IMG/VR virus record: IMGVR_UViG_3300037099_000186 | Location: 1 to 46,326 of that record | DNA length: 46,326 nt | Direction: 5' to 3' (one strand) | Origin: a virus | Shown here: piece by piece, positions 1 to 45,384 of the stretch | Position numbering within the stretch: position 1 is the stretch's first letter | Layout of the letters: each line of letters starts with the position of its first letter | Translations under genes and position numbers: made by a program | Notes under the pieces: model-generated | Database searches by the model: none | What the model was told of the DNA's origin: nothing | The model's input: only the letters and a program-made list of their open reading frames with translations

Positions 1-1905
1 ACCAAGGAATCTGCGAAAGGCGGCATTGTTTTCATACCAGCCGGCTACTATAAGCTTCTTTCAACGATCGATCTTGGCACGTGCGGAATCATACAAGGAG
101 TGTCTTGTACAACTGATCTTTCTAATTTTGGCGTAGCATCCGGTAAAACTGGTTCATGCCTTGCTTCGTACGTTACATCTGGTAATGCAATCACCATTGG
201 TCACATGGCAACGTTAATTTCTAACGTTATTGTCAAAGATTTCGGCATTTTCAATGCCAACCTTACTGATCCCAACGGGGGTGGATTGCCGCCGGACGCG
301 TCAAATTTAACTGGGTTTAATTTAACTGCTGCGCAAGCAGGTAATATATTAGTTGATAACGTTCATTGTTTCGGTTGGGGAACTGGCATCAATGTTGGCA
401 CTGGAGAAGAGTGTTGTTTCAGTAATAATCAATGCTTTATCAACGGTATAGGCATGCTTGTTCCAATTGGAATAACAAATACCAAGATTTTAAATCCTCA
501 TATTTCATACGCTTACGATGGAATGTTAGTCCAATCGTCTGATCAAGTTACGATTGATGGCGGTGCGATACAAGGTTGTATCAACAACGGTTTGCACATT
601 CAGCCTACGCCATCTGGTTACGGTGCGTCTGGAAGAATTGAAAAACTATCCGTAAAGAACATTTGGTTCGAGGCAAATAATAACTCGGGATCGACTACGG
701 CGGCAGACGTTTTATTTGATGCTAGCACTGAAACATCTGCATATTATCAATATTTTAGCAATGTATCGTTTGAGAATTGTCATGCTGGATCTCAATATTG
801 TCCAATGGTATTCATTAGAAATCCAATAATTGGACAGCAACACATCGCCACTGGCATTGATCTATTGTCTGTTATTGATTGCCAGTTTTTAAGCGGTGCT
901 ACAAACATCGTAGTACCAAGTTATTCAACTTATGCTTCGTTCATGGGAAGCAAGCATTGGGGTATAACTGATAATGGACTTCAAACGATAATTTTAAATT
1001 GTGAGCCCGCGGGCGGCGGACCCACGTTTCAAATACCTGCAATTTACCCTTGGCACACGTTGCTCGATATTGATTTCGTTGCACAAACGCCACAAACATT
1101 CAACGCACCTGGAAATTACACGTTTGGTGGTAAAACGTGGACGATGATCAACACGAACGTTCCTAGTTCTGGTCCATCGATTCAACTCACGTCGAACGGG
1201 TTGCAAATCTTCAGCAACAGCATTTCAGGAGTCGGCGCGCCATCGATGTACACCAATGGATCAGGTACGTGTCAAATGGTGAGGTTACCGCTCTCACAGT
1301 TGTTCGGATCAACTTCATACGATTACGACACGAAGTTGAGGATCTCTGTTTCATACAGCAGGGGCGATGCATTTACGTTGCCAACGATCGGTGCGTCGCC
1401 GGGTACGTGGGGAGATTCTGCGTTCTTTGGTATCGATGCTCAGAACGGCAATATTTTGTCAACGATAGCGCAGTACGGCAACAACATTTACGGCATCGGT
1501 GAAACGGGTTCGCAAACGTGGGGATTGCAGCTTGCTCAGTACGGTTACGTGATCGGCGGTGGAAACGCTGTTTTGTCTGATTCAATTCTATTGGATTTGA
1601 TTGTTGGTGGCGGTGGATCATATGCTGCTCAAACACAGTGCGTAACGTTCAATGGATTGGGACAAACACGCGATCTAGCTGCACGTATAGCCGGCTACCT
1701 TGACGTATCGGGTGGCGCTACACAGGATTTTCCTGCACAATCAGGTTACTACCCACTCGGTCACATGTCATGTAACGTTAGCAACGGTAACACCGGCGGT
1801 TCATTGCTGTCCAACCTAGGAATTGTCATGGGATTCCAATCGCCAAGTTCAGCGGTCGGGAGTTGGTGTCTTATTCAACGCTTGAAGGTTGAATACTCAT
1901 ATTGA
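1..1905 (+). CDS. Tailspike/tail fibre protein with pectate-lyase-like beta-helix, 5' truncated by window edge
   Basis: The frame is open from base 1, so the real start lies to the left and at least 634 residues are visible. The first residues (GGIVFIPAGYYKL) are the classic entry motif of the pectate lyase 3 / right-handed beta-helix fold of phage tailspikes. They are followed by a long stretch rich in Asn, Gly, Ser and Thr with short beta-strand-like repeats. The last 200 or so residues are Gly/Ser rich and look like a C-terminal head or receptor-binding domain. Such proteins bind and often depolymerise host surface polysaccharide. The 3' end overlaps the convergent Rnl1-like gene by 35 bp. 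No catalytic residues can be assigned by eye. Confidence 0.8.
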   Translation, partial: TKESAKGGIVFIPAGYYKLLSTIDLGTCGIIQGVSCTTDLSNFGVASGKTGSCLASYVTSGNAITIGHMATLISNVIVKDFGIFNANLTDPNGGGLPPDASNLTGFNLTAAQAGNILVDNVHCFGWGTGINVGTGEECCFSNNQCFINGIGMLVPIGITNTKILNPHISYAYDGMLVQSSDQVTIDGGAIQGCINNGLHIQPTPSGYGASGRIEKLSVKNIWFEANNNSGSTTAADVLFDASTETSAYYQYFSNVSFENCHAGSQYCPMVFIRNPIIGQQHIATGIDLLSVIDCQFLSGATNIVVPSYSTYASFMGSKHWGITDNGLQTIILNCEPAGGGPTFQIPAIYPWHTLLDIDFVAQTPQTFNAPGNYTFGGKTWTMINTNVPSSGPSIQLTSNGLQIFSNSISGVGAPSMYTNGSGTCQMVRLPLSQLFGSTSYDYDTKLRISVSYSRGDAFTLPTIGASPGTWGDSAFFGIDAQNGNILSTIAQYGNNIYGIGETGSQTWGLQLAQYGYVIGGGNAVLSDSILLDLIVGGGGSYAAQTQCVTFNGLGQTRDLAARIAGYLDVSGGATQDFPAQSGYYPLGHMSCNVSNGNTGGSLLSNLGIVMGFQSPSSAVGSWCLIQRLKVEYSY

Positions 1906-3121
1906 GGACATTGAGCAACTTGTCAAGCATCGACGGTGACAGCTTTCCATCAATGCTCAACGTTCTGATGTAATCATCGCACGATAGCGTGAACTTTCTT
2001 GATTTCATGACATCATCGTACAACGCGAACATCACGTATGTCAATGCATCTGATGCCTGCACCTGCAACGCGAATTCCTTTCTAGTCGTTGAATTCCTGA
2101 TGAATGATTCGAACAATTCGTCGTTGTGCTTGCAAAACGCTGCATACGCAGCTTGAAGCAGCACCAACTTGCTAGCTACGTCCTTCTCGATCAACGGCAG
2201 GACGTCATCGATCGATTGTTGTATGATTGCCTCAAGGCCCGATCTGGGCGATGTGGTGACCATCTCACGGGCCTTGGACGACAGAACCCACGACTTGTTC
2301 TTGACCTTTAAGCGGTTGAACGAAGAATCACAAACGACTGCACCCTCCAGTTTTCCTGGGTCTGCGTTGTCGACAAACGCTCTAAGGGCGACAACATCCT
2401 TGATGTTCCAAGTTTTCGGTCGAGGAATGTAACGCGGTATCGGCAATTCGTTGATGTTTAGTTCTTCTCCGGTCGTGATGTCGCGAGCGGCGATCAACGT
2501 CACTCGAGGTTCTTCGTACCTGACGACGACGCGGTTGTACGGACCGGTGAGTTCAAACACGTACGTAACGTTCGTATTGAGGTCTAACCCGTGCAAGAGG
2601 TAGTTACGCAATGCGTCCTCTCCTGCCGCAATCACTGTTTTGTGGAGAGCATCGTCAAACAAGACGGAGAACGTTTTTTCTCCGATGAGTATGTTCTGCG
2701 AGTTCACAGGTAGATCAGCGTCAGGCACCCCTCGCGTCGCCCTGCACCAACCGTTCAACTCGCCATCGTAGTACACGACGATCATCGTGCCGTCAAGCTT
2801 TTCTAGGACGTTCAACCAAGGATCAGACCAATCAACGTTTGCCCCTGCGGGATCGCCAGCGTTGTAGAACCTGTTCATCGGCCAGGCCAATAGTTCAACG
2901 TCGCCGACGATCGTGTCAACGTTGGTGCATTTCACGCGAGGTTTGATAACAATGCCACGACACTGTTCAGCGAGCAGATCACCGTTTTTAATTTCGACCT
3001 GGTTGTAGTTCAGGCTGTGCTTACGTGCATCGTTTGAAGGACGTGAATTGACGCCGTGTTCCTCTTTTAACTGAGCAAACGTATGAGTTTTCAGGTACTC
3101 GATGACAAACGGTTGAACCAT
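1871..3121 (-). CDS. rnlA: T4 Rnl1-like RNA ligase
   Basis: Joins RNA ends using ATP; phage members reseal tRNAs cut by host anticodon nucleases. The 416-residue protein carries the nucleotidyltransferase motifs in order: motif I EKLDGT with the likely AMP-accepting Lys108, a motif III/IIIa region FELTGPYNRV near 189-198, motif IV EGAVV at 259-263 and motif V KVKNK at 272-276. T4 Rnl1 has 374 residues, so the length is close. The start is ATG at 3121, placed 6 nt from a -10 element, which predicts a leaderless message. No polynucleotide kinase is visible nearby. Confidence 0.88.
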   Translation of the reverse strand: MVQPFVIEYLKTHTFAQLKEEHGVNSRPSNDARKHSLNYNQVEIKNGDLLAEQCRGIVIKPRVKCTNVDTIVGDVELLAWPMNRFYNAGDPAGANVDWSDPWLNVLEKLDGTMIVVYYDGELNGWCRATRGVPDADLPVNSQNILIGEKTFSVLFDDALHKTVIAAGEDALRNYLLHGLDLNTNVTYVFELTGPYNRVVVRYEEPRVTLIAARDITTGEELNINELPIPRYIPRPKTWNIKDVVALRAFVDNADPGKLEGAVVCDSSFNRLKVKNKSWVLSSKAREMVTTSPRSGLEAIIQQSIDDVLPLIEKDVASKLVLLQAAYAAFCKHNDELFESFIRNSTTRKEFALQVQASDALTYVMFALYDDVMKSRKFTLSCDDYIRTLSIDGKLSPSMLDKLLNVLNMSIQPSSVE

Positions 3122-3127
3122 GGTTGT

Positions 3128-3157
3128 AGTCTACACTTGTTCGTTGAATTCTTACAC
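3128..3157 (-). promoter_or_regulatory. Phage promoter (GTGTAA-18-TAGACT)
   Basis: Read on the minus strand: -35 GTGTAA, 18 bp, -10 TAGACT, then 6 nt to the ATG of the Rnl1-like gene. It matches the phage promoter pattern seen many times in this window. Confidence 0.55.
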
Positions 3158-6875: not shown

Positions 6876-7367
6876 CGATTTCCTATCGTGATGAATGATG
6901 GATGAACTGAGTTTTCACGTTCAAAGTGCGCATTTAGTATCATCTTATAAACGCGTCTATTCAAACACGGATACGTTTTGAAGAATTGTGCATCGTTATC
7001 GCGGTGAATCAATGATAATGCAGCCGCAACTGCTGGAGACCTCGACAAACCTGCATCACAGTGAACGATCAATGTCGTGATGCTGTCAACGTACGCACTT
7101 ACAAACGCAAGTATCGCGCGCGCGCCTTGGTTCGAACGATTGGTTCTCCAACTTTATGATATTCGATGACTCATTGAGATCGTAAGGAATGTTTTCAATC
7201 CTATCGACGTCAAAGAACGTTAGCTGCAACACGCTCAACGTGTTATCATTCGTTGCCACGCGAGCAGGCGACGTGCCCGGCGTCGTTATCGAAATGATGG
7301 CGTGTGGATCAACTGGTGGAACACACGTTTCCGCCGTCAAACGGTTCATGACTGTGATGTTCAACAT
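6872..7367 (-). pseudogene. Dual-specificity protein phosphatase, frameshifted
   Basis: Two overlapping frames together encode one phage tyrosine/dual-specificity phosphatase of about 165 residues. The N-terminal part (7367 to about 7130) reads MLNITVMNRLTAET then the PHAIISITTPG strand typical of this family. The C-terminal part (about 7120 to 6872) has the CX5R catalytic loop HCDAGLSRS. The join falls in a (CG)n run at 7117-7128; adding one CG (or removing one base) gives a continuous RARAILAFVSAYVDS reading into the active site. Downstream translation could restart at TTG 7072. This may be slippage, a programmed shift or an assembly error. ATG 7367 is supported by a phage promoter 6 nt upstream. 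Confidence 0.7.
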
Positions 7368-7373
7368 CTGTTG

Positions 7374-7403
7374 ATTGTACAACCAATGAATGACTAGTTG
7401 CAC
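7374..7403 (-). promoter_or_regulatory. Phage promoter (GTGCAA-18-TACAAT)
   Basis: -10 TACAAT ends 6 nt before ATG 7367 of the phosphatase gene; -35 GTGCAA lies 18 bp away. It predicts a leaderless message and fixes the phosphatase start. Confidence 0.55.
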
Positions 7404-8596: not shown

Positions 8597-8618
8597 TCAA
8601 GTAAATATTGATCATCGT

Positions 8619-9156: not shown

Positions 9157-9744
9157 CTAACTATCGTTGCGTTGCTTGATAGATTCAACGCATTCGATAG
9201 CGTGATCGTAATTGCGTGCCGTTAGTACGTTAACGTTATGTCGATAATTCCATGATCGACTAATCAACACGGCGTATTCTGGAAACGATGTGCAGTGTGC
9301 AATGTTATCATCGATCAACACGTTGCCCTTGATGATGTTCTTTTGCGAAGTGAAGATGATGTCACGTGCATTGAATCCGAAGTGCTTCTCCAGCCACTTT
9401 GTCCTATCATAACACCACGTACGTGATTGAACGTATTGAACGTAAGGTGCTGTCACAACTGTTATATCACCTAATGTTTGCAACCTTTCAACGAAAGACA
9501 ACGCTCCATCGTATGGTTTGATTGCATGAGCAAAACCAGCACATTCAGACGCATTGTGTATGATTTCAATGTCTTCGCCATTGAATGCTGGACAAGTTTC
9601 TAATGTGAATCCTTCTACGTCATATTCGGTAACGATTCCCAATTCTGTGACTACGCCACGAACGTCACGTGAATCATTGACGTATTCGAGAATAAGACCA
9701 ATATAATCGGCGATCACACCATCGCAATCGAGTAGAATCCTCAT
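9157..9744 (-). CDS. HAD-family 5'(3')-deoxyribonucleotidase-like phosphatase
   Basis: 195 residues. HAD motif I DCDGVIADY (residues 6-14), motif II TVVTAP, and a late KGNVLIDDN with the acidic motif IV match the NT5C/5' nucleotidase group. These enzymes dephosphorylate deoxynucleoside monophosphates and adjust nucleotide pools during phage replication. The ATG at 9744 is 6 nt from a -10 element, so the message may be leaderless. Confidence 0.82.
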   Translation of the reverse strand: MRILLDCDGVIADYIGLILEYVNDSRDVRGVVTELGIVTEYDVEGFTLETCPAFNGEDIEIIHNASECAGFAHAIKPYDGALSFVERLQTLGDITVVTAPYVQYVQSRTWCYDRTKWLEKHFGFNARDIIFTSQKNIIKGNVLIDDNIAHCTSFPEYAVLISRSWNYRHNVNVLTARNYDHAIECVESIKQRNDS

Positions 9745-9750
9745 GGAAGC

Positions 9751-9780
9751 ACCATACCAGTGTTTGTTGTTGCTTTACAC
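9751..9780 (-). promoter_or_regulatory. Phage promoter (GTGTAA-18-TATGGT)
   Basis: -35 GTGTAA, 18 bp, -10 TATGGT, then 6 nt to ATG 9744. The -35 overlaps the stop codon of the preceding gene. Confidence 0.5.
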
Positions 9781-10306: not shown

Positions 10307-10551
10307 TTAACTTCCAACGCATCTTTAGGCGTCATGTCATCATCATCGTCATCATTGTGAAACAACGTTTTATATGCAACGATCATTTCATCGATGATCC
10401 TTAACACACACCACGATGAAACAACGTAGAATGCTCCATTCGTTGCTGATTCACGTTTCAGAATAATTCCAATTATAAAAAATATCATTGCGAGACCAAA
10501 CAACAACGCTTGAACGTTCCCGTGCGGCAAGCGTTTTACATTCTTTTTCAT
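10303..10551 (-). CDS. Small two-TM membrane protein
   Basis: 82 residues. ATG 10551 is chosen because it shares ATGA with the stop of the VWA gene; a GTG at 10557 is the alternative. There are two hydrophobic segments (ALLFGLAMIFFIIGIIL and the FYVVSSWCVL region), then an acidic DDDDDD run near the C-terminus. It is part of the operon headed by the VWA/metallopeptidase gene. Confidence 0.6.
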   Translation of the reverse strand: MKKNVKRLPHGNVQALLFGLAMIFFIIGIILKRESATNGAFYVVSSWCVLRIIDEMIVAYKTLFHNDDDDDDMTPKDALEVK

Positions 10552-11945
10552 CGCCACGCTCCCTTCAACGATCGTTCGTTCGTCATGTGGACCTGCGTTT
10601 CGTTCGTGTCAAACGCTAGCTTGCAATCCTTACCGAGAACCCACGCTCTCTTCACTCGTGATGATATGGGTTTGGGAGCTTGACCATCAGTGAGGATTAT
10701 GATGCCGTCCCACCTTCCTCGATTCTTTGGATCGTTCACAACCCTCGTGGGTGCGCTGAAATCCGTTCCACCACCACGAACCCGTTGTAGCTTCGGTCGC
10801 ATGCCCTTCTTCCATTCGTAGAGGTCCTTGGGACCCGTGTGACAGTCGAAGTGACACAACGTGATGCTCGTCTTTCGCGTCAACGTGTCCAATTCACCGA
10901 AGAACGTTTCGAGCATGCCATCATCGACTGATCCAGATTCATCAACGGCGACGAATATCTTTGCGATGTACCCTCGTTTTGTACCGGGATGAATGTACGG
11001 GTAGCGCCTATTGATTCGTTTGATCGATGACGTTCGCATGCCACGTAACGTTGAACCGACGAACTGCTTGAGCACCGACCGCCAGTCAACGATCCTGCTC
11101 ACGGAGCGTCGTATCTCTTGACGTAGTTCTGATGGTATGTCACCCCACGATGACGAGTCAGCGCGGTTCACAGCACCCTCAATGATTCCCTTGATCTTGC
11201 TTTCAACGTACTCTCGCATCTCGTCTGGAACATCATCCCAACCATCGTGGTCATCACCACCGATGATCACGTATTGTTTGCCATCTAGATGGTTTTCATG
11301 AGCAAATTCTCGTAGCTTCTTAAAGTACCACTCTGAACACTCCTCAGGCGGTAACTTTTCGATGAGGTCACATAACAACAACGTTGCTGCTTGCGATGCA
11401 GGATCGAGCTTTGCGAACCTGATCGGGTCGATATACGGTCGCTCGCCTGGAATCAGGCCTCCACTTGGTAGACACCGCCATTCTTGGCCGGGTTTTATGT
11501 TTTGAGGTTGCTTTGTGCGTTTCTTGATCAATGAATTGATTGCGAGATCTGTTCCTTTGTTCCAATCATCGTGTGGATTGCGACGACGAACGTTGAGATG
11601 ACCGTAGACGAGGTGATCGAACTCGTGCGTTAGCAGACCACGAATCTCAGACGCCGTCTTCGGTTCTTCAGTGATCTCGTCACCGTTTTTATCGGTGTAC
11701 GTTCCACCACCGAGGAACACCGGATTGAGGTACAGCACAACCTGATCTTCCTCAATGTCATACGTCACGCCCGCCGTTGGAAGGTCCAACGAGAACCTCT
11801 TCGCCACGTGGCGTGAGATTTCGCAGTAGAATGGCGAATCAGACAAGAACATCATGAGGTGCTTGTCGATATCATACGTTGGCTCACATGCAGTCCAACG
11901 CTTCGGTGCCTTCACGATTGTTGTCACAACCTTTTCATCAACCAT
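10548..11945 (-). CDS. VWA-domain protein with putative metallopeptidase domain (DUF2201-like)
   Basis: 465 residues. The N-terminal half carries a zinc HExxH motif (THEFDHLVYGH, residues 106-116), typical of the putative metallopeptidase of DUF2201. The C-terminal von Willebrand A-like domain begins with the MIDAS-type DESGS at 335-339 and includes GGGTDFSAP and LTDG. Such proteins work with MoxR AAA ATPases as chaperone-like remodelling pairs; a MoxR gene lies 8.5 kb upstream in the transcription sense. ATG 11945 lies 6 nt from a -10 element. Confidence 0.85.
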   Translation of the reverse strand: MVDEKVVTTIVKAPKRWTACEPTYDIDKHLMMFLSDSPFYCEISRHVAKRFSLDLPTAGVTYDIEEDQVVLYLNPVFLGGGTYTDKNGDEITEEPKTASEIRGLLTHEFDHLVYGHLNVRRRNPHDDWNKGTDLAINSLIKKRTKQPQNIKPGQEWRCLPSGGLIPGERPYIDPIRFAKLDPASQAATLLLCDLIEKLPPEECSEWYFKKLREFAHENHLDGKQYVIIGGDDHDGWDDVPDEMREYVESKIKGIIEGAVNRADSSSWGDIPSELRQEIRRSVSRIVDWRSVLKQFVGSTLRGMRTSSIKRINRRYPYIHPGTKRGYIAKIFVAVDESGSVDDGMLETFFGELDTLTRKTSITLCHFDCHTGPKDLYEWKKGMRPKLQRVRGGGTDFSAPTRVVNDPKNRGRWDGIIILTDGQAPKPISSRVKRAWVLGKDCKLAFDTNETQVHMTNERSLKGAWR

Positions 11946-11951
11946 GCTTAC

Positions 11952-11981
11952 ATCCTACCATCAGCTGTTGTTCGTTTGCAC
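11952..11981 (-). promoter_or_regulatory. Phage promoter (GTGCAA-18-TAGGAT)
   Basis: -35 GTGCAA, 18 bp, -10 TAGGAT, 6 nt to ATG 11945 of the VWA gene. A predicted leaderless start. Confidence 0.5.
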
Positions 11982-12754: not shown

Positions 12755-12955
12755 TCACCATTTTGCAGCCACGATCAATCCACCAATGATCCCAGCGATC
12801 AAGAACGCCACGAGATCGGTGTTGCACATTGCCGCCATAGACCATGCGAACCCGCCGGCAATGAAACCTATCCACGTACCGACCATGTATTTGAATCCCT
12901 TTGGAAACAGCATGAATAATCCTAAACACACCAATGCACACTCGATGATGCCCAT
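12755..12955 (-). CDS. Small membrane protein
   Basis: 66 residues from ATG 12955 (a TTG at 12997 would add 14). Three hydrophobic helices are visible (IIECALVCLGLFMLF, WIGFIAGGFAWSMAAM, LVAFLIAGIIGGLIVAA) with few charges. It is inserted between array copies B and C of cluster 1. The function is unknown; its size would allow a holin- or superinfection-exclusion-like role, but nothing specific supports this. Confidence 0.6.
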   Translation of the reverse strand: MGIIECALVCLGLFMLFPKGFKYMVGTWIGFIAGGFAWSMAAMCNTDLVAFLIAGIIGGLIVAAKW

Positions 12956-13114
12956 GGCAACAATCGTAACACGTATCAAGGCTACGTTGCACAGCAAATT
13001 TTACGTGGAACGATGTTTAAGAGAAGACGTTGTGGATACGTCAACGCTAGATGTCATCAACACGCGTTGAACAATCGTATTCGTGTCGCTAGGTTGCGGT
13101 CAACATACAATGCG

Positions 13115-16905: not shown

Positions 16906-16934
16906 CTTGTACCATGTTAGAGCGTTGTTTACAC
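16906..16934 (-). promoter_or_regulatory. Phage promoter (GTGTAA-17-TACAAG)
   Basis: -35 GTGTAA (overlapping the DNA ligase stop), 17 bp, -10 TACAAG, 11 nt before ATG 16894. Confidence 0.4.
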
Positions 16935-18287
16935 AACTTCGTTTTGAAGTAACGCCGTCGCTGTTTCGATCAGTTTCTTATCAACATCGTTGATGGAACG
17001 AAACCTAACGAAGACGGGAAAACGTGCCTTTCCATCCTTCGAAAGTCCATCGGTTGTCAATGGATCGGGTTGCATCTCGATTTCAATCACTTTTCCAACG
17101 TACGATTCAGGACCATTGAGCTGCACTTCGGCCCTGAACGCATCGTTGAATCCACCACCAACGCGAGTGATTATTCCGTTCTGCGAAACGCAATCAAACC
17201 CACCGAACATTCCCTCGTTTTTTGTTCCAGTCCGTCCTTCGTATGTGCTGATGATTACCATTTCATGCGTCATAACGGGCTTCATCTTCATGAGCGCTCG
17301 TGAGCGCTTGAACACGTATGCCGCGTTGAGATCTTTGATCATGATCCCTTCGTGACCCTGTGACATCGATTCGGAGTAGAACGAAAGAAGCTCTTTTTCG
17401 TTCTCGACTGTCTTTCCTTCAACGGCAACGACGTTCTTTGAATTCACTGCGTCAACGATCAAACGAACGACATTTAGTCTTGCAACATACGTAGCGGTGC
17501 TGTTTTGTGCGATCCATTGTTCGAGCGCAACGGCATCGAAAACGTTGTACACCATGTGAGAATCGTCTTTCTTCTCCTTTCGCGACATGACGACAGACAC
17601 CGAAGTGTTCCAATCGTGAGTGTCAGCGAGAATCTCTCCATCGAGGACGACGTTGTCGTACGACGCCTCTTCGAGAGCTTTTGTCACCGTTGGCAGAGTA
17701 TCGAGAACGGTACCGTTCCTTGTGTATATTGTAACAACGCCTTCCTGCTTCACTGCGATGCATCGAAGACCGTCGAGCTTCGGATCAACGCGAACTGGAT
17801 ATGCGATCCTTTCGTTGATCTTGATGCCATTTTCTTTTGTACACGTCGTGCTCAACGTTTGAGCAAGTGCAACTTCGAAGCTTTTCAGAAGTCCTGGCCA
17901 CACCTTGTTGACGGTCGATTCCTGAACGCCAACACGGAGGTTCTTCAGGATGATTCGTTGACACCACTTTTGCTGGCGTTCATTCATCGTGGAGAACTTA
18001 GCAACAACCCATTCCTTCGCGGAGTTTCCTGTGATCATTCGTGTAGCGAGCATTGAATCTAATCCGGTGATGAATGCATCCACAATGCAATCATCTAAGT
18101 CATTCGATGCATTTTTTGCAGGTGGCACCTTAAATTTATTGACGTAATATACGGTGTACGGATCCTGCGATGCAACGAACACCCGTCGCAACAATTCGTT
18201 ACGTGAGTTATCCTCAAGAATTGAGCGCTTCGCTAACGAACCACCGGTTGATTCAAGCTCCTCAAGAACGTCGATTACCGTCTTCAT
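16929..18287 (-). CDS. ATP-dependent DNA ligase
   Basis: 452 residues from ATG 18287. Motif I is DPKLDGLR with the predicted adenylated Lys170; later blocks VLDGEIL, YNVFDAV, EGIMIKD and LMKMKP are ligase motifs III, IIIa, IV and V. An N-terminal helical DNA-binding domain (residues 1-150, with QKWCQRIILKNLRVG) and a C-terminal OB fold are as in T4 gp30 (487 residues). It seals nicks during phage replication and repair. The start is fixed by a promoter whose -10 is 7 nt upstream; a GTG at 18317 is the alternative. Confidence 0.9.
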   Translation of the reverse strand: MKTVIDVLEELESTGGSLAKRSILEDNSRNELLRRVFVASQDPYTVYYVNKFKVPPAKNASNDLDDCIVDAFITGLDSMLATRMITGNSAKEWVVAKFSTMNERQQKWCQRIILKNLRVGVQESTVNKVWPGLLKSFEVALAQTLSTTCTKENGIKINERIAYPVRVDPKLDGLRCIAVKQEGVVTIYTRNGTVLDTLPTVTKALEEASYDNVVLDGEILADTHDWNTSVSVVMSRKEKKDDSHMVYNVFDAVALEQWIAQNSTATYVARLNVVRLIVDAVNSKNVVAVEGKTVENEKELLSFYSESMSQGHEGIMIKDLNAAYVFKRSRALMKMKPVMTHEMVIISTYEGRTGTKNEGMFGGFDCVSQNGIITRVGGGFNDAFRAEVQLNGPESYVGKVIEIEMQPDPLTTDGLSKDGKARFPVFVRFRSINDVDKKLIETATALLQNEVV

Positions 18288-18477
18288 GTTGAACAGTGTA
18301 CCACATCGGCGCGCCACTTACACCATCAACTTCGTTCAATAGCTCGCGTTGCTCGTTTCTTGCACCACCACGTTCATCACGCTTATCGTGCATTGGTCCA
18401 CCCTTGCAATTCAACAGCATTTCAAGAACAATAATGCTGCGTGCCTTATTCAAGCGTCTTTTATTATGTTTTCGCAT
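18262..18477 (-). CDS. Small basic hypothetical protein
   Basis: 71 residues, beginning MRKHNKRRLNKARSIIVLEM and containing KGGPMHDKRDERGGARNEQR, an arrangement seen in some phage small proteins. It overlaps the DNA ligase start by 26 bp and contains the ligase promoter. No Shine-Dalgarno is visible. It may be real, but this call is weak. Confidence 0.4.
   Translation of the reverse strand: MRKHNKRRLNKARSIIVLEMLLNCKGGPMHDKRDERGGARNEQRELLNEVDGVSGAPMWYTVQHEDGNRRS
18295..18323 (-). promoter_or_regulatory. Phage promoter (GTGTAA-17-TACACT)
   Basis: -35 GTGTAA, 17 bp, -10 TACACT, then 7 nt to ATG 18287 of the DNA ligase. Confidence 0.55.
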
Positions 18478-19178: not shown

Positions 19179-19448
19179 TCAAGGCAACTTCTTTAGGTAA
19201 CCATCGTCAACATCACCCCATGGAACATAGTCGTATAGACCACTTTGGGCATATAATATTAGATAACCATCGCTGTTTTCATCAATACGTGGATCATTGC
19301 CATAGTTCTTTATACGAGTGATGGTTAAATTTGGCATTCCTGTCGCCTTCGTGTACCTCCACGTACCGACAACGATACACGCTTGCATCTCAAACGATGT
19401 TTTAAACATGCACATCGATCCCAATTGCAACCTACGATCGTTTTTCAT
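19179..19448 (-). CDS. Hypothetical protein
   Basis: 89 residues, beta-rich (MCMFKTSFEMQACIVVGTW, DGYLILYAQSGLYDYV). It shares ATGA with the stop of the upstream 144-residue protein, indicating translational coupling. No family is recognised. Confidence 0.6.
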   Translation of the reverse strand: MKNDRRLQLGSMCMFKTSFEMQACIVVGTWRYTKATGMPNLTITRIKNYGNDPRIDENSDGYLILYAQSGLYDYVPWGDVDDGYLKKLP

Positions 19449-19879
19449 ACGATGTTGATTGCATCAAGAGAGTGAATGATCACCCTACCGACGTTAGGGA
19501 CGATGAATGTGTGCTTCATGACATCAACATCCTTTGTTTCTTTACCGATACGCACTCGTTCGATTGCAGGTACGTTGCCAGCATACATGATGATCGTTCC
19601 CGCTGGAACGCGTATTTGTTTGCCTTGTTTGCCTAAACCAGTGTCAAGAACGGGAAATTGGTATCCGTCTGGTATTAGATGCATATCGTAAATTGTGATG
19701 AACGGTGCAAACATCATGAGCTTTGCACGAACAGCGTCACTATGAGGCGTTTTGATTGGATCAATGTATCGTTCAGGAATTTTCTTCAATGCAACGTTTG
19801 TTGCGGCATTTGGCGTCACCCAAACGATATCATTTTTACGTGGACGTTTACGAAGCCTTTTGACGTTCGGTGTTGTCAT
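19445..19879 (-). CDS. Hypothetical protein
   Basis: 144 residues with a very basic N-terminus (KRLRKRPRKND) and a beta-rich body (GYQFPVLDTGLGKQGKQIR, VGRVIIHSL). It heads a two- or three-gene transcript with its own promoter, whose -10 is 6 nt before ATG 19879. It might bind nucleic acid through its N-terminus; this is a guess. Confidence 0.6.
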   Translation of the reverse strand: MTTPNVKRLRKRPRKNDIVWVTPNAATNVALKKIPERYIDPIKTPHSDAVRAKLMMFAPFITIYDMHLIPDGYQFPVLDTGLGKQGKQIRVPAGTIIMYAGNVPAIERVRIGKETKDVDVMKHTFIVPNVGRVIIHSLDAINIV

Positions 19880-19885
19880 GATCTA

Positions 19886-19914
19886 CTCATACCACAACCA
19901 CGTATGGTTTGCAC
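19886..19914 (-). promoter_or_regulatory. Phage promoter (GTGCAA-17-TATGAG)
   Basis: -35 GTGCAA, 17 bp, -10 TATGAG, then 6 nt to ATG 19879; predicted leaderless. Confidence 0.5.
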
Positions 19915-23098: not shown

Positions 23099-23232
23099 CA
23101 CGAATTCTTCGAAAAACCGTTCGTGAAGTACCACACGACCAAAAACAACATCACTATGAAACACGTGATGATGGTAGGTCCTATCACGTCGTTATTCATC
23201 GCGTTGATGACTTCATTAACAACATTTATCAC
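23098..23232 (-). CDS. Very small membrane protein
   Basis: 44 residues from GTG 23232, which overlaps the sigma-factor stop as GTGA; its own TGA overlaps the next ATG. One membrane helix ([16 protein letters not shown]). The tight overlaps on both sides are good evidence that it is translated. Confidence 0.6.
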
Positions 23233-24026
23233 GTTAATCCATTTCCATTCATCACTTGTTGAATTTCAGATTCTGTGATCGGGTAATCAACGCTGTTCGT
23301 TGGATCCTCGACAAGACCAAATCGAAGACGTAATATTGCGGCTTCCTTCGCAGTCAATTCATTTAACACTCCGCGAGCAATTTCGAGCAATTGCTTTTGC
23401 GCAACGTTGTCAAATGGATCGCTTCCAGGACGATCATCCTCAATTCGATCCTCGATCGTGTTGCCTTCGCCTGGTCCTGACAACGGTTGTTGCAGAGAAA
23501 TTGCCTCTCTGCCTGAGTGTATTGTTGCCTTGACGACCGTTTCACTGGCACCGATTATTTCCGTTAGCTCTTCCGTCGTTGGTTCACAACCCATCAATTC
23601 GCGGTAGTCGTCGGCGGCTTGCAACATCTTACGTTGAACCGTCGCTGCGTGTGCAGGCAAGCGAATCGTCTTTTTATTCTTCAGGATGTGCTGACCAATC
23701 GCCTGCTTTATCCACCACGTAGCGTACGTTGAGAACCTGAATCCCTTATCCCACTTGAAGCGTTCAACGGCTTTCATCAGACCGATGTTGCCTTCTTGAA
23801 TGAGATCTTCAATCGGTAGATTGTATTTCTTGAATTTTTTAGCAATAGATACGACAAGCCTGAGGTTACACCTTAGAATCTTATCGCGAACCTTCGTTAC
23901 ATTGACGCCTGATTCATACGCCTGAAATAGTAATACTATTTCTGGATGTGATAGTTGCGGGTATGCGTGTAAGGAATCAAGGTACGAACTTACGATTCCC
24001 TGTTCCTCGCTTCGTTGCATACCCAT
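23229..24026 (-). CDS. Sigma-70 family factor lacking region 4.2
   Basis: 265 residues from ATG 24026 (TGATG overlap with the upstream stop). Region 1.2/2 is complete: [29 protein letters not shown] and [15 protein letters not shown]. Region 3 follows (RLPAHAA to TEELTEIIG). Region 4.1 is present as [15 protein letters not shown], but the protein ends about 25 residues later ([13 protein letters not shown]) without the 4.2 helix-turn-helix that reads the -35 box. T4 gp55 is a precedent for a phage sigma without region 4. A nearby HTH protein (22463-22759) could supply it. Confidence 0.88.
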
Positions 24027-24995: not shown

Positions 24996-25024
24996 ACAAT
25001 ATAACACTTTCATAGGTTGTACAC
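24996..25024 (-). promoter_or_regulatory. Phage promoter for tRNA-Lys (GTGTAC-17-TATTGT)
   Basis: -35 GTGTAC, 17 bp, -10 TATTGT, 9 nt before the first base of tRNA-Lys. It lies between the two tRNA genes. Confidence 0.5.
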
Positions 25025-25133: not shown

Positions 25134-25162
25134 AGTATACACCGACTCTCAAAATTGTACAC
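25134..25162 (-). promoter_or_regulatory. Phage promoter for tRNA-Tyr (GTGTAC-17-TATACT)
   Basis: -35 GTGTAC, 17 bp, near-consensus -10 TATACT, 10 nt before tRNA-Tyr. Confidence 0.6.
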
Positions 25163-25352: not shown

Positions 25353-25616
25353 TTAATCGAAACACTTCATAACGCGTGGAATAACCATGACACGAATGCT
25401 CGAATTTTGGACGTAGACCGTGTCATACACAAGCGCACGGAACAACCCATTTGGTGTCAACCAAGAATAGAACTCGTCGGTGATTGAGATGAGAACGGTG
25501 GGTTGAATGCCGATTGAAATCCAATAATTCATTAGTGATGAATAAAGTTCGGTATCTTCGAAAACAGGTTGAGAATCATATTCATACACCCACTCGATGA
25601 GGTCGCCAGGTTTCAT
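25353..25616 (-). CDS. Array-family small protein, cluster 2 copy A
   Basis: 87 residues. Core MKPGDLIEWVY, SQPVFEDTELYSS, WISIGIQP, ISITDEFYSWLTPNGLF. This copy diverges (YSSLM for WSTPM, FRALVYD for FHARVDD) and its tail VMKCFD no longer encodes the GGAGAA site, in keeping with the dead gene behind it. The variable segment is TVYVQNSSIRVM, then VIPR. Confidence 0.65.
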   Translation of the reverse strand: MKPGDLIEWVYEYDSQPVFEDTELYSSLMNYWISIGIQPTVLISITDEFYSWLTPNGLFRALVYDTVYVQNSSIRVMVIPRVMKCFD

Positions 25617-25876
25617 CGATGTTCTCCGACAATGCGCGGAACAACCACCTCGTGTTGCTCGTCGTCGGAGTAGCCAGTCGCATCATCTGCACGCGCGTGG
25701 AACAAACCATTCGGGTTCAGCCACACATAAAACTCGTCGGTGATCGAAATGAGGATCGTAGGATGAATGCCGACTGGAATCCAGCATTGCATCGGCGTTG
25801 ACCAATACACCTCATTTTCGAGAACGGGTTGAGAATTATATTGATACACCCATTCGATGAGATCGCCTGGTTTCAT
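25613..25876 (-). CDS. Array-family small protein, cluster 2 copy B
   Basis: 87 residues, a canonical copy: MKPGDLIEWVYQYNSQPV, WSTPMQCW, ISITDEFYVWLNPNGLFHA, variable segment ATGYSDDEQHEV, then VVPRIVGEHR. ATG 25876 and its stop both form ATGA overlaps with the neighbours. The DNA of the VGEHR tail provides GGAGAACATCG-ATG to copy A. Confidence 0.75.
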   Translation of the reverse strand: MKPGDLIEWVYQYNSQPVLENEVYWSTPMQCWIPVGIHPTILISITDEFYVWLNPNGLFHARADDATGYSDDEQHEVVVPRIVGEHR

Positions 25877-26136
25877 CGAGGTTCTCCGACAATGCGCGGA
25901 ACAACATGCATTGCGAACTTGCGCTTTGTTCCTAACGTCGCGTCATCCACACACACGCTGAACAACCCCTCGGGGGTCAACCAAGAATAGAACTCATCGG
26001 TTATCGAGACGAGCATCATTGGTTGAATATCGACAGGAATCCAACGTTGCATCGGCGTTGACCAGATTTCGATTTCTTCGCGAACGGGTCGAGAATTATA
26101 TTGATACACCCATTCAATCAAATCACCTGGTTTCAT
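25873..26136 (-). CDS. Array-family small protein, cluster 2 copy C
   Basis: 87 residues: MKPGDLIEWVYQYNSRPV, WSTPMQRW, VSITDEFYSWLTPEGLF, then SVCVDD where other copies have HARVDD, because the repeat here reads ACGCTGAACAACC. The variable segment is ATLGTKRKFAMH, followed by VVPRIVGEPR. ATGA overlap with copy B. Confidence 0.75.
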   Translation of the reverse strand: MKPGDLIEWVYQYNSRPVREEIEIWSTPMQRWIPVDIQPMMLVSITDEFYSWLTPEGLFSVCVDDATLGTKRKFAMHVVPRIVGEPR

Positions 26137-26157
26137 CTATGTTCTCCGACACTCATA

Positions 26158-26415
26158 TCATCCCTGCACGCGTGGAACAACCGGCCGCGTGGGCATGGAA
26201 CGGGTACCTGGACCGCACGTGTCATTCACGCGCACGCTGAACAACCCCTTCGGTGTCAGCCACGTGTAGAATTCGTCGGTGATTGAAATGAGCATCATGG
26301 GATGAACACCGATTGGAATCCAACGATTCATCGGTGTTGACCATATTTGTTCACTATTGTAAACAATGTGAGAATTATATTGATATACCCATTCAATCAA
26401 ATCACCTGGTTTCAT
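26158..26415 (-). CDS. Array-family small protein, cluster 2 copy D (first of array)
   Basis: 85 residues from ATG 26415 (TAATG overlap with the gene upstream). Core MKPGDLIEWVYQYNS, WSTPMNRWIPIGVHP, ISITDEFYTWLTPKGLF. The variable segment is TCGPGTRSMPTRP. It stops early after VVPRVQG; the 21 nt between its stop and the next ATG still contain GTCGGAGAACATAG, so the ribosome site is kept although it is no longer coding. Confidence 0.74.
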   Translation of the reverse strand: MKPGDLIEWVYQYNSHIVYNSEQIWSTPMNRWIPIGVHPMMLISITDEFYTWLTPKGLFSVRVNDTCGPGTRSMPTRPVVPRVQG

Positions 26416-26684
26416 TACCATAAATCCTCTGAGAACAGCATTTGTGCCCTTATGTTGTCAACGTTTTTGACCTGTCCACACGCAAGCGCAATGCTCAATG
26501 CATCTTTTCTTGACAAGAAATTTTCATTATCATCCAAGAATCCTTGTTCCTTGTCGCCATCCTCATCGATGTAACTGCATCCTGGGTTTTGTGATGCAAT
26601 CATCATCAGAACGTTGTGATGTCTGTTCGGTCTTGGGAGGCTATACGTCTTTCCTCGAAATCGAACTGCAACATGCGTTATCAT
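26415..26684 (-). CDS. Conserved phage-type hypothetical protein
   Basis: 89 residues from ATG 26684 (ATG 26726 would add 14). The pattern ITHVAVRFRGKTYSLPRPNR with HHNVLMMIA, then QGFLDDNENFLSRKDALSIA and a C-terminal LFSEDLW, is shared with many phage hypotheticals of unknown role. It heads the cluster 2 transcript. Confidence 0.7.
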   Translation of the reverse strand: MITHVAVRFRGKTYSLPRPNRHHNVLMMIASQNPGCSYIDEDGDKEQGFLDDNENFLSRKDALSIALACGQVKNVDNIRAQMLFSEDLW

Positions 26685-26768
26685 GCATTCATTGTAAGCC
26701 CGAAGAGAACAAACTTTCACAGCCATGAACAACGATGGTCAGCATATTGTACGATAAAAAACAAGAAA

Positions 26769-28089: not shown

Positions 28090-28428
28090 TTATGATTGTA
28101 CGCTACACTTCACCCATGATAAAATGTCATGCATTAACGCATCGCATCGATCAATTGATGTTTGTCTATCATCACATGAAGGTTCAAAAACAAAGTAATC
28201 AAACGTTTCGTTACATTCTGATATTACGTGCTTATCAGCAATTTTACAGTGAAATTTCGTTTCATATGCATTGATTACCTCATCGATGCCATCGATTGGA
28301 TCGTGAACAACGTCATCGCTGTTCACCGGTAGCTCGAACGTGCAGTTTGCAATCGTTGGTAGACCATCAACGTCAATTGGATCACCGTAACACGCTCGAA
28401 CCCGCAGAACGAAGCTACCCTTTGTCAT
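28090..28428 (-). CDS. Hypothetical protein
   Basis: 112 residues with six Cys scattered through it, beta-rich at the N-terminus (SFVLRVRACYG) and ending in a helix (DALMHDILSWVKC). Its ATG is 6 nt from a -10 element. No family is recognised. Confidence 0.58.
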   Translation of the reverse strand: MTKGSFVLRVRACYGDPIDVDGLPTIANCTFELPVNSDDVVHDPIDGIDEVINAYETKFHCKIADKHVISECNETFDYFVFEPSCDDRQTSIDRCDALMHDILSWVKCSVQS

Positions 28429-28434
28429 GTTAAC

Positions 28435-28463
28435 ACAGTATCATTCGCTCGAACGGTATGCAC
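28435..28463 (-). promoter_or_regulatory. Phage promoter (GTGCAT-17-TACTGT)
   Basis: -35 GTGCAT, 17 bp, -10 TACTGT, then 6 nt to ATG 28428; predicted leaderless. Confidence 0.45.
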
Positions 28464-29421: not shown

Positions 29422-29429
29422 GCATATAA

Positions 29430-29714
29430 CTAGGTTCGTCTATTCGTCCACCAGGGTTCGGGTAACAACCGCTCGAACTCAAATGGCTTCTTGTTCTTCA
29501 CATTCACCATCACGTATCTACCAGCGATGCAATGAACTTTAGCCAGGTGTCGTTCTCTACACCCCCATCTCTTATATTTCACTTTAACCATCTTGAGTTC
29601 AAATAACTGCGAATGCATGAACTGTAAACTCGCCGAATGATAATCACCAAAATTCCTAAAATCTAGCGCGTGTTTACAAGCGATGTACGTTCCACGATCT
29701 ATTTTGTTTTTCAC
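29430..29714 (-). CDS. Hypothetical basic protein
   Basis: 94 residues from GTG 29714 with AAAGGAA upstream. Basic and beta-rich (MVKVKYKRWGCRERHLAKVH, GRYVMVNVKNKKPFEFE), possibly an SH3- or KOW-like fold. The AT-rich 29715-29785 upstream probably holds its promoter, but I see no phage-type -35. Confidence 0.5.
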   Translation of the reverse strand: MKNKIDRGTYIACKHALDFRNFGDYHSASLQFMHSQLFELKMVKVKYKRWGCRERHLAKVHCIAGRYVMVNVKNKKPFEFERLLPEPWWTNRRT

Positions 29715-30382: not shown

Positions 30383-31015
30383 TTACACTGCCTTTTTTGC
30401 CTTCGCGGCCGCGATCGCTCGAGCGATCGCATCAGAAGCGTTTGACGTTGCTCTTGAATCGGTTTCGGTGGGTGAAGATTGCTTCTTGTTTGCTTCGTTG
30501 TTTGATTCATCAACAAGCTCTTGTTGCTTTTTCTTTTCCGCTGCATACATTCGTATCTTGCTTGATGTTGCATCAATCCCTATCTTTTCAATGAGCTTCA
30601 TCACGTGTTTCGTAGCATCATCACAAGGTTTATTCATTGTTTTGACAATGATTGATATAAGTTCATCAATTTTTGTGTATGGTCCGTCGTCTGTCAACGG
30701 CGGAGGCAACATTTGCTCCTCAACGGGCGTGGACGAAACGCTATGAGACATCACACCTTCGTTTGACTCAGCCGGTGTTTCGTTGACTGTGCCAACCTGC
30801 GTTGCGTGTTGGTGAACCTTACCTGAAAACGAAAACTTTGATTCTAAATCAGCGCGTAACGAATTATATTCGTTATTTGTTGACATTACATCAGCATCAT
30901 ATTTGTTCGTTAGTTCAAGCAAACGATTGCTTTTAGCGTTTTCACACCTGCGAATTGCTTCGCTTCCGAGGTCAAACAACGCTTCATCTGCCCACTTCTT
31001 GATATCGTCTGTCAT
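30383..31015 (-). CDS. Hypothetical low-complexity protein
   Basis: 210 residues. A helical N-terminus (DIKKWADEALFDLGSEAIRR), a polar disordered middle, a second helical block (YTKIDELISIIVKTMN) and a basic Ala/Lys tail (IARAIAAAKAKKAV) that could bind nucleic acid. It has its own promoter 6 nt upstream. No family is recognised. Confidence 0.6.
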   Translation of the reverse strand: MTDDIKKWADEALFDLGSEAIRRCENAKSNRLLELTNKYDADVMSTNNEYNSLRADLESKFSFSGKVHQHATQVGTVNETPAESNEGVMSHSVSSTPVEEQMLPPPLTDDGPYTKIDELISIIVKTMNKPCDDATKHVMKLIEKIGIDATSSKIRMYAAEKKKQQELVDESNNEANKKQSSPTETDSRATSNASDAIARAIAAAKAKKAV

Positions 31016-31021
31016 ACCTTG

Positions 31022-31050
31022 ATACTAACATCGTTGGCTACGTCGTACAC
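31022..31050 (-). promoter_or_regulatory. Phage promoter (GTGTAC-17-TAGTAT)
   Basis: -35 GTGTAC, 17 bp, -10 TAGTAT, then 6 nt to ATG 31015; predicted leaderless. Confidence 0.55.
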
Positions 31051-34853: not shown

Positions 34854-34880
34854 GCTTGTAACTATCCCTTCATCTCCGTA

Positions 34881-36797: not shown

Positions 36798-36831
36798 TGT
36801 CGTGTATTTCTTTGTTGGGGTTAAAAGACGG

Positions 36832-36904
36832 TACGCCAGGCTGGGCTTGAACCAGCGACCGCGGACTTATAAGGCCCGTGCTCTTACCTCTGAGCTACTG
36901 GCGT
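36832..36904 (-). tRNA. tRNA-Ile(TAT)
   Basis: 73 nt. The acceptor is ACGCCAG/CTGGCGT, the D arm uses GCTC/GAGC, the anticodon loop CTTATAA gives TAT (reads ATA), and the T arm is GCTGG-TTCAAGC-CCAGC. No CCA is encoded. TAT is the rarer Ile anticodon in bacteria, where ATA is usually read by modified CAT tRNA, so the phage brings its own decoder. Confidence 0.92.
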
Positions 36905-40572: not shown

Positions 40573-40601
40573 ATCATAACAGGTTGATTTGTCAGATTCA
40601 C
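40573..40601 (-). promoter_or_regulatory. Phage promoter (GTGAAT-17-TATGAT)
   Basis: -35 GTGAAT, 17 bp, -10 TATGAT, conserved TTCTTACAAGG after it. Drives the 33- and 44-residue genes. Confidence 0.68.
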
Positions 40602-40611
40602 CGTGATGTTG

Positions 40612-40944
40612 TCAGCGAGCCTCGCAGCCGATGACGTGGGATCCGTAGGTGCCCATGTTCATCTCACGGGGTTCTGAACAGCTCCACACCTTTGCTGCCG
40701 GCGCCGCGGCGATCCGAACGACCGTGGGGGCAACCTTGGCCGTTGGTGTTGCCTTGGTGGAGGAGAGCGTGTTGATTGCATCGTCGCTGAATGATAGGAC
40801 CGAAGCGACCTGGACGGTGCGATCGATCTCTTGGAAGCGACGGTTGCTTGCAGACGCTGATCCGCGGGTTGAGAACTGTGAACCGGCAAGGATGCCGCAG
40901 ATTATCGTTAGTGCCGTTGTTACGACCACGATTTGCTTGATCAT
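40612..40944 (-). CDS. Secreted protein with C-terminal two-Cys motif
   Basis: 110 residues. A signal peptide (QIVVVTTALTIICGILAG), an Ala/Thr/Pro-rich middle (TPTAKVAPTVVRIAAAPAA) and a C-terminus KVWSCSEPREMNMGTYGSHV with IGCEAR that parallels the secreted protein at 39979-40200. ATG 40944 is 6 nt from the -10, so the message is predicted leaderless. Confidence 0.65.
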   Translation of the reverse strand: MIKQIVVVTTALTIICGILAGSQFSTRGSASASNRRFQEIDRTVQVASVLSFSDDAINTLSSTKATPTAKVAPTVVRIAAAPAAKVWSCSEPREMNMGTYGSHVIGCEAR

Positions 40945-40950
40945 GAGTAT

Positions 40951-40979
40951 ATAATATACCTTTGGAAAATTGGTTTCAC
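40951..40979 (-). promoter_or_regulatory. Phage promoter (GTGAAA-17-TATTAT)
   Basis: -35 GTGAAA, 17 bp, -10 TATTAT, 6 nt before ATG 40944. Confidence 0.6.
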
Positions 40980-42381: not shown

Positions 42382-42410
42382 ATTATAACAGATTGTTTAA
42401 TTGGTTACAC
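42382..42410 (-). promoter_or_regulatory. Phage promoter (GTGTAA-17-TATAAT)
   Basis: -35 GTGTAA, 17 bp, perfect -10 TATAAT, then conserved ATTCTTACAA. Confidence 0.7.
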
Positions 42411-42665: not shown

Positions 42666-42914
42666 TCAATGACGTTCGCCTGAGGCATCAGTGTCCTCAA
42701 GGGGTCCCTTGACGCAGGTTATGCCTTCAACGCAATGCCTTGGCGTCTCAAAGGATGCAGTGTACGTGGGCCCGAGCGCGCGGATTCGATGCTGCGGGTT
42801 GTCAAAGCTGTCAAGGCTCTCGAGGTCAGCGTTCATGGACGTCGGTCGCCGAACGGCCGCGGCACAACCCGTGAGACAGACGAGAAACACAACCAATCTA
42901 TTGAGTGTCATCAT
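42666..42914 (-). CDS. Putative lipoprotein
   Basis: 82 residues. The signal TLNRLVVFLVCLTGC ends in a clear lipobox LTGC. The mature part is polar with two further Cys near the C-terminus (RHCVEGITCVKG). Two ATGs in a row at 42914 and 42911; the -10 element is only 6 nt away. Confidence 0.66.
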   Translation of the reverse strand: MMTLNRLVVFLVCLTGCAAAVRRPTSMNADLESLDSFDNPQHRIRALGPTYTASFETPRHCVEGITCVKGPLEDTDASGERH

Positions 42915-42920
42915 GAAGGT

Positions 42921-42949
42921 ATATTATCATGAAGACACGCTCGATTCAC
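42921..42949 (-). promoter_or_regulatory. Phage promoter (GTGAAT-17-TAATAT)
   Basis: -35 GTGAAT overlaps the stop of the next gene; 17 bp; -10 TAATAT; 6 nt to ATG 42914. Confidence 0.58.
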
Positions 42950-43446
42950 TTCGTAAGTGACAACCTGCACCCTGTCGCAATTCCGTTGATGACCACGAGG
43001 TATGCCAGCGCGATCGCTGCCAACCACGGAGTCTGGACGAGGACCATCGTTCCCTCGATCAGGGTCGTCCAACCCAGCGCCTTCCACTTGCTGTTGAACG
43101 CCTTGTCGCCCCAACCGAAGACGGTCAGCGCTGAGAACAGCATGCCTCCGAGTACGAGGTATGCTAGAGGCTGCAAGTACAGTTCCGTTGACGTGCTCAG
43201 TTCGTATCGAGCGACGGTGAACGTTGCGATCGGTGCGATGCTGCCGAGAAAGAACCCGAGGATCGTGGCCTTCCTTGCACTTGGCTTCATTGCCTCCCTG
43301 ACCTGCGAAACGATGCCGAGCTTCGATGGATCCTTCGACGTGCTCGCGCGCTCGCGTCGACGCTTATTCTTCGGTGCCGTCCAGAGCTCCGGCGTTGGAA
43401 CGACGAATGGGTTGTTTTGCAGAGCAACGTGTGATTTGCTGTTCAT
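42946..43446 (-). CDS. Multi-pass membrane protein
   Basis: 166 residues. A soluble basic N-terminus (APKNKRRRERAS), then about four membrane helices (ILGFFLGSIAPIATFTVA, LAYLVLGGMLFSALTVFGW, TLIEGTMVLVQTPW, LAAIALAYLVVING). No family is recognised; it may act at the host membrane. ATG 43446 is 6 nt from the -10, predicted leaderless. Confidence 0.66.
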   Translation of the reverse strand: MNSKSHVALQNNPFVVPTPELWTAPKNKRRRERASTSKDPSKLGIVSQVREAMKPSARKATILGFFLGSIAPIATFTVARYELSTSTELYLQPLAYLVLGGMLFSALTVFGWGDKAFNSKWKALGWTTLIEGTMVLVQTPWLAAIALAYLVVINGIATGCRLSLTK

Positions 43447-43452
43447 GGTGTT

Positions 43453-43481
43453 ATATTATCCCGTGGTCGTGATGGATTCAC
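43453..43481 (-). promoter_or_regulatory. Phage promoter (GTGAAT-17-TAATAT)
   Basis: -35 GTGAAT, 17 bp, -10 TAATAT, 6 nt to ATG 43446. Confidence 0.6.
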
Positions 43482-44321: not shown

Positions 44322-44350
44322 ATCATAACAGGTTGAATTGTCGGATTCAC
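44322..44350 (-). promoter_or_regulatory. Phage promoter (GTGAAT-17-TATGAT)
   Basis: -35 GTGAAT, 17 bp, -10 TATGAT, then TTCTTACAAGGTGAGG into pentapeptide gene 3. Confidence 0.68.
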
Positions 44351-44739: not shown

Positions 44740-44769
44740 AGTGTATCACGGTGTGATGCTGAGGTTCAC
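44740..44769 (-). promoter_or_regulatory. Phage promoter (GTGAAC-18-TACACT)
   Basis: -35 GTGAAC, 18 bp, -10 TACACT, overlapping the stop of the next gene. Drives the 97-residue gene through a longer leader. Confidence 0.5.
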
Positions 44770-45378: not shown

Positions 45379-45384
45379 GTGTTT

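Follow-up and report, generated by a model that had tools for sequence, protein, structure and literature searches.

Genome context of the window

The stretch of DNA analysed here (the window) is the whole of IMG/VR record IMGVR_UViG_3300037099_000186 and is 46,326 bases long. It has a G+C content of ~48%, carries nearly all of its genes on the minus strand and contains four tRNA genes. A tRNA-Ile at 36830-36904 (-) has an unusual anticodon, TAT. Simple gene calling covers only 47% of the window. A DNA similarity search against 50,697 named phages gave no match. The encoded proteins are distantly T4-like, with members of phrog_562 (RNA ligase/tail fibre attachment), phrog_114 (DNA ligase) and phrog_548 (RNA ligase), and among the best hits of the DNA ligase in named phages identity does not exceed ~31%. 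The structural module is absent from this fragment; a T4-type portal protein is present in 8 of 11 relatives. For comparison, relatives were gathered by a glycosyltransferase search that yielded 22 records, related or partly related to the window.

We looked for an actinobacterial signature of the WhiB type (Whib domain), WhiB being an Fe-S partner of sigma-A, as a clue to the host and found none. A search for PF00562 and for a multisubunit RNA polymerase beta subunit of phage type likewise found none, so the core RNA polymerase is most likely that of the host.

A GTG box and a -10 element at fixed distance from the start codon

The initial annotation had placed a -10 element exactly 6 nt before the ATG in eleven genes of the window, and 7 nt before it in the DNA ligase gene, and had read the first genes of operons as leaderless. 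A -10-like hexamer does precede all 12 of these minus-strand starts. TANNNT-N6-ATG is found at 3121, 7367, 9744, 11945, 28428, 31015, 40944, 42914, 43446 and 45378, and the distance is 7 nt at the ligase start (18287). At 19879 the 6-nt distance holds and the -10 itself is imperfect (TATGAG). All 12 starts also share a second box that had been missed, GTG(C/T/A)A(A/T/C), located 17 or 18 nt upstream of the -10. Two further starts of this class had been overlooked, at 26684 (6 nt) and 12955 (7 nt). We refer to these promoters as class 1.

Predicted class 1 leaderless promoters in the window
3122-3157 (-): gene 1871-3121 (phrog_562, RNA ligase/tail fibre attachment); GTGTAA-N18-TAGACT-N6-ATG; kept by orthologues in G023 and G020
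7368-7403 (-): gene 7086-7367; GTGCAA-N18-TACAAT-N6-ATG
9745-9780 (-): gene 9157-9744 (NT5C-like nucleotidase); GTGTAA-N18-TATGGT-N6-ATG
11946-11981 (-): gene 10548-11945 (DUF2201 metallopeptidase/VWA-like); GTGCAA-N18-TAGGAT-N6-ATG; kept in G023 and G020
12956-12992 (-): probable promoter, 66-aa ORF 12755-12955; GTGCAA-N18-TACGAT-N7-ATG
18288-18323 (-): DNA ligase gene 16929-18287; GTGTAA-N17-TACACT-N7-ATG; kept in G021 and G020
19880-19914 (-): gene 19445-19879, imperfect -10; GTGCAA-N17-TATGAG-N6-ATG; kept in G023 and G020
26685-26720 (-): heads a short-ORF array; GTGAAA-N18-TACAAT-N6-ATG
28429-28463 (-): gene 28090-28428; GTGCAT-N17-TACTGT-N6-ATG; kept in L005, L008 and G023
31016-31050 (-): gene 30383-31015; GTGTAC-N17-TAGTAT-N6-ATG
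40945-40979 (-): gene 40612-40944; GTGAAA-N17-TATTAT-N6-ATG
42915-42949 (-): gene 42666-42914; GTGAAT-N17-TAATAT-N6-ATG
43447-43481 (-): gene 42946-43446; GTGAAT-N17-TAATAT-N6-ATG
45379-45413 (-): gene 44746-45378; GTGAAT-N17-TAATAT-N6-ATG

Counted by the -10 criterion alone, TANNNT-N6-ATG occurs 29 times in the window, against a mean of 18.4 and a maximum of 28 in shuffled sequence. The full pattern GTGNAN-N17/18-TANNNT-N6-ATG occurs 11 times, always on the minus strand, where 0.22 are expected (at most 2 in 100 shuffles); these 11 include 26684 and leave out 18287 and 19879. The GTG box and the fixed spacing, rather than the -10 alone, are thus the decisive evidence for a leaderless design. 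The start at 26684 belongs to the first ORF of a tandem series (25353-26684, minus strand) whose members are of similar length (~87 aa).

Class 1 promoters in related phages

Some of the 22 relatives show strong enrichment of the class 1 pattern, and in the rest it is near zero. Set against a reversed control, the full pattern was counted 30/0 times in G001 (216 kb), 48/0 in G020, 41/0 in G007, 32/0 in G021 and 28/2 in G005, and in records added later 55/0 times in G023 and 29/1 in each of G044 and G047, a range of 28-55 per large record versus 0-2 in the control. The initial annotation had named the lack of a genome-wide peak at 6 nt as a refutation of its proposal; this peak is present in eight records. 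When the -10-to-ATG distances of seven large records and the window were pooled, 252 fell at 6 nt, 34 at 7 nt, 25 at 8 nt, 18 at 5 nt and ~7 at each other distance. The spacer between GTG box and -10 peaks at 18 nt. With the GTG box and the ATG as the only anchors, the intervening sequence again yields TANNNT, best conserved at T1, A2 and T6.

The usual context of a transcription start is a pyrimidine preceding a +1 purine, and a C before the ATG is therefore expected where the A of the ATG is +1. The base at -1 of class 1 starts is C in 82-97% of cases, compared with 13-57% among all ATG genes. The promoter is also kept in 11 of 19 orthologue pairs of the leaderless genes of the window versus none of the 73 pairs from 15 control genes, counts in which not all pairs are independent because some records overlap. 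As a separate observation, many class 1 spacers of G044, G001 and G054 contain imperfect inverted repeats (e.g. GTTCAACTCCGAAC and AAAGTTCACCCTCGAAG), possibly an operator.

Class 1-form promoters before leaders and tRNA genes

The same unit is also found in the window at sites that lack an ATG 6 nt further on.

Class 1-form promoters not placed on a start codon
46016-46044 (-): followed by a leader with SD-like AAGGTGAGG
44322-44350 (-): followed by a leader with SD-like AAGGTGAGG
42382-42410 (-): followed by leader ACAAAGTGAGGAAAAC
40573-40601 (-): followed by leader ACAAGGTCGGAAAAC
25134-25162 (-): upstream of tRNA-Tyr (mature 5′ end 25123)
24996-25024 (-): upstream of tRNA-Lys (mature 5′ end 24986)

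Several of the promoters at 39.9-46.0 kb share a leader, ACAAGGTGAGGAAAAC or sequences close to it, in which the core is SD-like; these leaders also read as TATGATattcttACAAGGTGAGG and its variants, and a Shine-Dalgarno-like sequence is present in some. The division drawn in the initial annotation, with first genes leaderless and downstream genes led, thus stands as a tendency and not as a rule. The promoters of tRNA-Tyr and tRNA-Lys lie 9-10 nt from the tRNA, and in the relatives some class 1-form promoters precede leaders bearing AAGGAG. Since the GTG-N18-TANNNT unit is found before ATGs, leaders and tRNAs, it would act as a promoter compatible with two positions, on a start codon or ahead of a leader.

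Shine-Dalgarno (SD) scoring was tried as a test of leaderlessness and dropped as non-discriminating. Scores of at least 5 were obtained for 0-32% of class 1 genes and 24-33% of the others, in a scanned stretch that overlaps the -10 region itself, and the scores of class 1 genes are not uniformly below those of other genes. The lack of an SD is no clean discriminator here because some -10 regions (GAGGTAGGAT) are SD-like in composition.

Transcription is predicted to start on the ATG

Taken at the level of sequence, the 6-nt peak, the C at -1, the conservation among orthologues and the placements before leaders and tRNAs support the leaderless reading of the initial annotation. We consider it likely that this large T4-like phage positions its promoters for initiation at the A of the ATG, which would yield leaderless mRNAs. 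RNA 5′ ends at the ATG are strongly predicted, and these messages would be translated without a leader. A class 1 promoter would consist of GTGNAN (-35), 17-18 nt, (TGN)TANNNT (-10), 6 nt and ATG, and would serve early/middle-type genes and short-ORF arrays.

Three other readings of the hexamer were weighed against this one. TANNNT is common enough to land 6 nt before some ATGs by chance, and taken alone the -10 barely exceeds the shuffled sequence of the window; this explanation is refuted by the full-pattern counts, the conservation in relatives and the pooled distance peak, and we give it practically no weight. It is improbable, too, that the mRNAs are near-leaderless, with a start a few nucleotides upstream of the ATG that leaves 1-4 nt. 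Real promoters do vary their start by 1-2 nt, and the shoulders of the pooled profile at 5, 7 and 8 nt could be taken in this way, but these shoulders are dwarfed by the peak at 6 nt, and the C at -1 is a base of the type that normally precedes a +1 purine. The hexamer might instead be an SD sequence (AGGA) on a normal leader, with the GTG box as an upstream element. Weighing against the leaderless design in this respect, the commonest -10 hexamer, TAGGAT (56 of 205), contains AGGA, which lies 7 nt upstream of the ATG and could be a weak SD if transcription began upstream. However, the conserved positions are T1, A2 and T6, whereas the middle is variable (GAC, CAC, TAC, ATA); the commonest hexamer in G044 is TATACT; and the GTG-18-TANNNT unit also precedes separate, stronger SDs as well as tRNAs. 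We regard this reading as very improbable and retain initiation on the A of the ATG.

A second, late-type element

In the large relatives, an element ATA(C/G/T)TTA(C/T) is enriched in the half of the genome that holds the T4-type portal gene. This element (ATANTTAY, class 2) stands 5-6 nt upstream of called starts and forms a peak of its own there. Class 1 crowds into short-ORF arrays and the early/middle half, the temporal classes (early/middle and late) being assigned from gene position only. In the window, class 2 takes the form TA(C/G/T)TTA-N5-start and had been overlooked at four genes.

Late-type elements in the window
8602-8607 (-): TATTTA, 5 nt upstream of ATG 8596
9158-9163 (-): TAGTTA, 5 nt upstream of ATG 9152
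29427-29432 (-): TAGTTA, 5 nt upstream of GTG 29421; similar TAGTTA in several relatives
34859-34864 (-): TAGTTA, 5 nt upstream of ATG 34853

TA(C/G/T)TTA was found upstream of genes in all split-sigma phages examined (see below), 18-52 times versus 0.2-9.5 expected, and in the fragment G020 8 times versus 0.4 expected. G009, a record with neither sigma part, shows no enrichment of the class 2 element; G049 does, but without the peak at 5-6 nt.

A truncated sigma factor and a separate region 4.2 protein

Two neighbouring genes of the window are relevant to transcription or may be so.

Sigma locus of the window
23229-24026 (-): phage sigma factor of the primary (RpoD/SigA) type; regions 2 and 3 complete; ends inside region 4, before the -35-reading helix
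22463-22759 (-): conserved 98-aa protein just downstream of the sigma gene; NxREIAxxMTxxGFxMNHSSA; helix-turn-helix-like by eye

Against the Sigma70_r4 profile, the sigma factor of the window matches only positions 1-18 of 50. The protein stops at the same point, short of region 4.2, in 80 of 80 relatives read (loci L158-L237), and neither a region 4.2 nor a frameshift continuation was found directly past the sigma stop in the phages examined. The truncated sigma is weakly modelled in its C-terminal half. In G020, the record that also carries a truncated sigma, a second, different sigma-like protein of 230 aa with a degenerate region 4 is encoded at G020:133005-133586.

The rest of Sigma70_r4 is found in a separate small protein of ~80-95 residues, where it follows four conserved cysteines (e.g. 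L067:1231-1512, L068:1333-1608 and L069:1321-1599; further loci L078-L157). In IMG/VR 201 relatives of this protein were detected, on contigs of uncultured phages, and 80 fetched; among the 50,697 named phages it had no match. It was detected in only four bacterial MAG contigs, too few for any inference about the host. Its recognition helix is TRMRICQIE (TRMRICQIEK), compared with the usual TRERIRQIE, and does not vary among the aligned members. AlphaFold modelled the small protein with moderate confidence (pLDDT 71), and a Foldseek search with this model returned a list dominated by sigma region 4 in which no single hit was significant.

Truncated sigma and small protein occur together in 13 of 43 records scanned, and neither was found in G009 or G013. 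Records with only one part are mostly fragments. The small protein was found without a detected sigma in G029, G040 and G041 (162-236 kb), and the sigma without the small protein in G001 (216 kb); the small protein is also absent from the window. The two genes lie ~81-104 kb apart in the same arrangement in G005, G020 and G021, which G023 would fit if circular, and ~40-50 kb apart in G044 and G037. In the layout of G005, G020 and G021, the small-protein gene would fall beyond the contig ends of G001, G003, G007 and the window, which would account for its being missing there.

The 98-aa neighbour of the sigma gene was considered as a candidate for the missing region 4 but not adopted, as it has no profile similarity to the small protein and no family match; Pfam and PHROG gave no match and the PDB none that was convincing. 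Its relatives carry YREIAD..MNHSSARNYVLRVMRKF and are encoded near the sigma gene in 80 of 80 loci, and the protein may belong to the transcription machinery.

Which sigma factor reads which class

Our assignments of sigma factors to promoter classes are much less certain than the leaderless design, and the reverse assignment, or both, is also conceivable. Class 1 is probably read by the host sigma-A holoenzyme, because it must include the earliest genes, which need a sigma factor that is present at infection. Class 2, enriched in the structural-gene half with ATANTTAY 5-6 nt upstream of the start codon, would be read by a split sigma of the phage: the primary-type sigma that ends after region 4.1 together with the separate cysteine-bearing region 4.2 protein. 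The two parts presumably work together and would be the counterparts of T4 gp55 and gp33.

Our first idea had been that the split sigma reads class 1, with the small region 4.2 protein binding GTGNAN and the truncated sigma opening the -10; the promoters would still be leaderless. In favour of this, the GTG box is found together with the split sigma in most records, TTGAC(A/C/T) boxes are not enriched upstream of genes, and the recognition helix is invariant across the aligned small proteins. We downgraded the idea given G049 and the late class. G049 has both sigma parts but no GTG box, and no leaderless peak either, so the split sigma need not read the GTG box, and the presence of the split sigma is followed at least as closely by class 2 as by class 1. 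The likely immediate-early genes in class 1 would, in addition, require a sigma factor carried in the virion. We now think it unlikely, though well within consideration, that the split sigma serves class 1, and favour host sigma-A for this class.

Discussion

The -35 element of T4 early promoters is GTTTAC and the T4 late promoter sequence is TATAAATA; here, by contrast, the -35 is GTGNAN with the promoter on the start codon, and class 2 is ATANTTAY. Like class 1, T4 early promoters combine -35, TGN and -10 elements, are strong and serve the early genes of a T4-type phage (PMC2988021). The T4 late promoter is an 8-bp TATA box without a -35 element (PMC2988020), and class 2 is similarly AT-rich, lacks a -35 box and lies about one helical turn before the start. 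T4 gp55 and gp33 have been called a split sigma, and the question was raised why their coding sequences are always separate (PMC2988020). In the T4-like phages studied here the sigma functions would likewise be divided between two genes, which lie far apart. Unlike gp55, the larger protein is a sigma of the primary type that comprises regions 2, 3 and 4.1; and whereas gp33, which binds the beta flap, has no sigma sequence similarity and reads no DNA, the small protein has clear similarity to Sigma70_r4.

Leaderless genes of Actinobacteria and Deinococcus-Thermus carry TANNNT ~12 bp before their start (Zheng et al, 2011, PMC3160421). They resemble class 1 in a -10 placed for transcription from the start codon and in the variable middle of TANNNT; they differ in that we describe phages, in which a strong, conserved GTGNAN box keeps a fixed spacing and a late-type class is present besides. 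SigO-RsoA of Bacillus is a two-subunit sigma (PMC8103513) that also has its sigma2 and sigma4 functions on separate proteins, but it is a hard-to-classify bacterial pair, whereas here the cut falls inside region 4 and the small part carries a cysteine motif. The late promoters of phiKZ, also a giant phage, have a TATG motif overlapping the start site (PMC4666361); phiKZ transcribes with a multisubunit RNA polymerase of its own and lacks a sigma-like -10, in contrast to the phages described here, with no RNA polymerase beta found. As far as the open-access literature shows, two promoter classes placed systematically on start codons in one phage lineage are new, as is a sigma factor that breaks off within region 4 while a cysteine-bearing region 4.2 stands alone as a separate protein.

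Leaderless mRNAs in phages are usually seen as exceptions, and in these phages leaderless translation during infection could be tested in a natural setting. A split sigma with a recognisable region 4.2 would also make a tractable comparison. There remains some chance, on the low side in our estimate, that this phage lineage expresses many of its genes as leaderless mRNAs by means of a two-part sigma whose stand-alone region 4.2, with its changed helix, reads GTGNAN. If so, that two-part sigma would stand midway between an ordinary sigma factor and the gp55/gp33 pair of T4.
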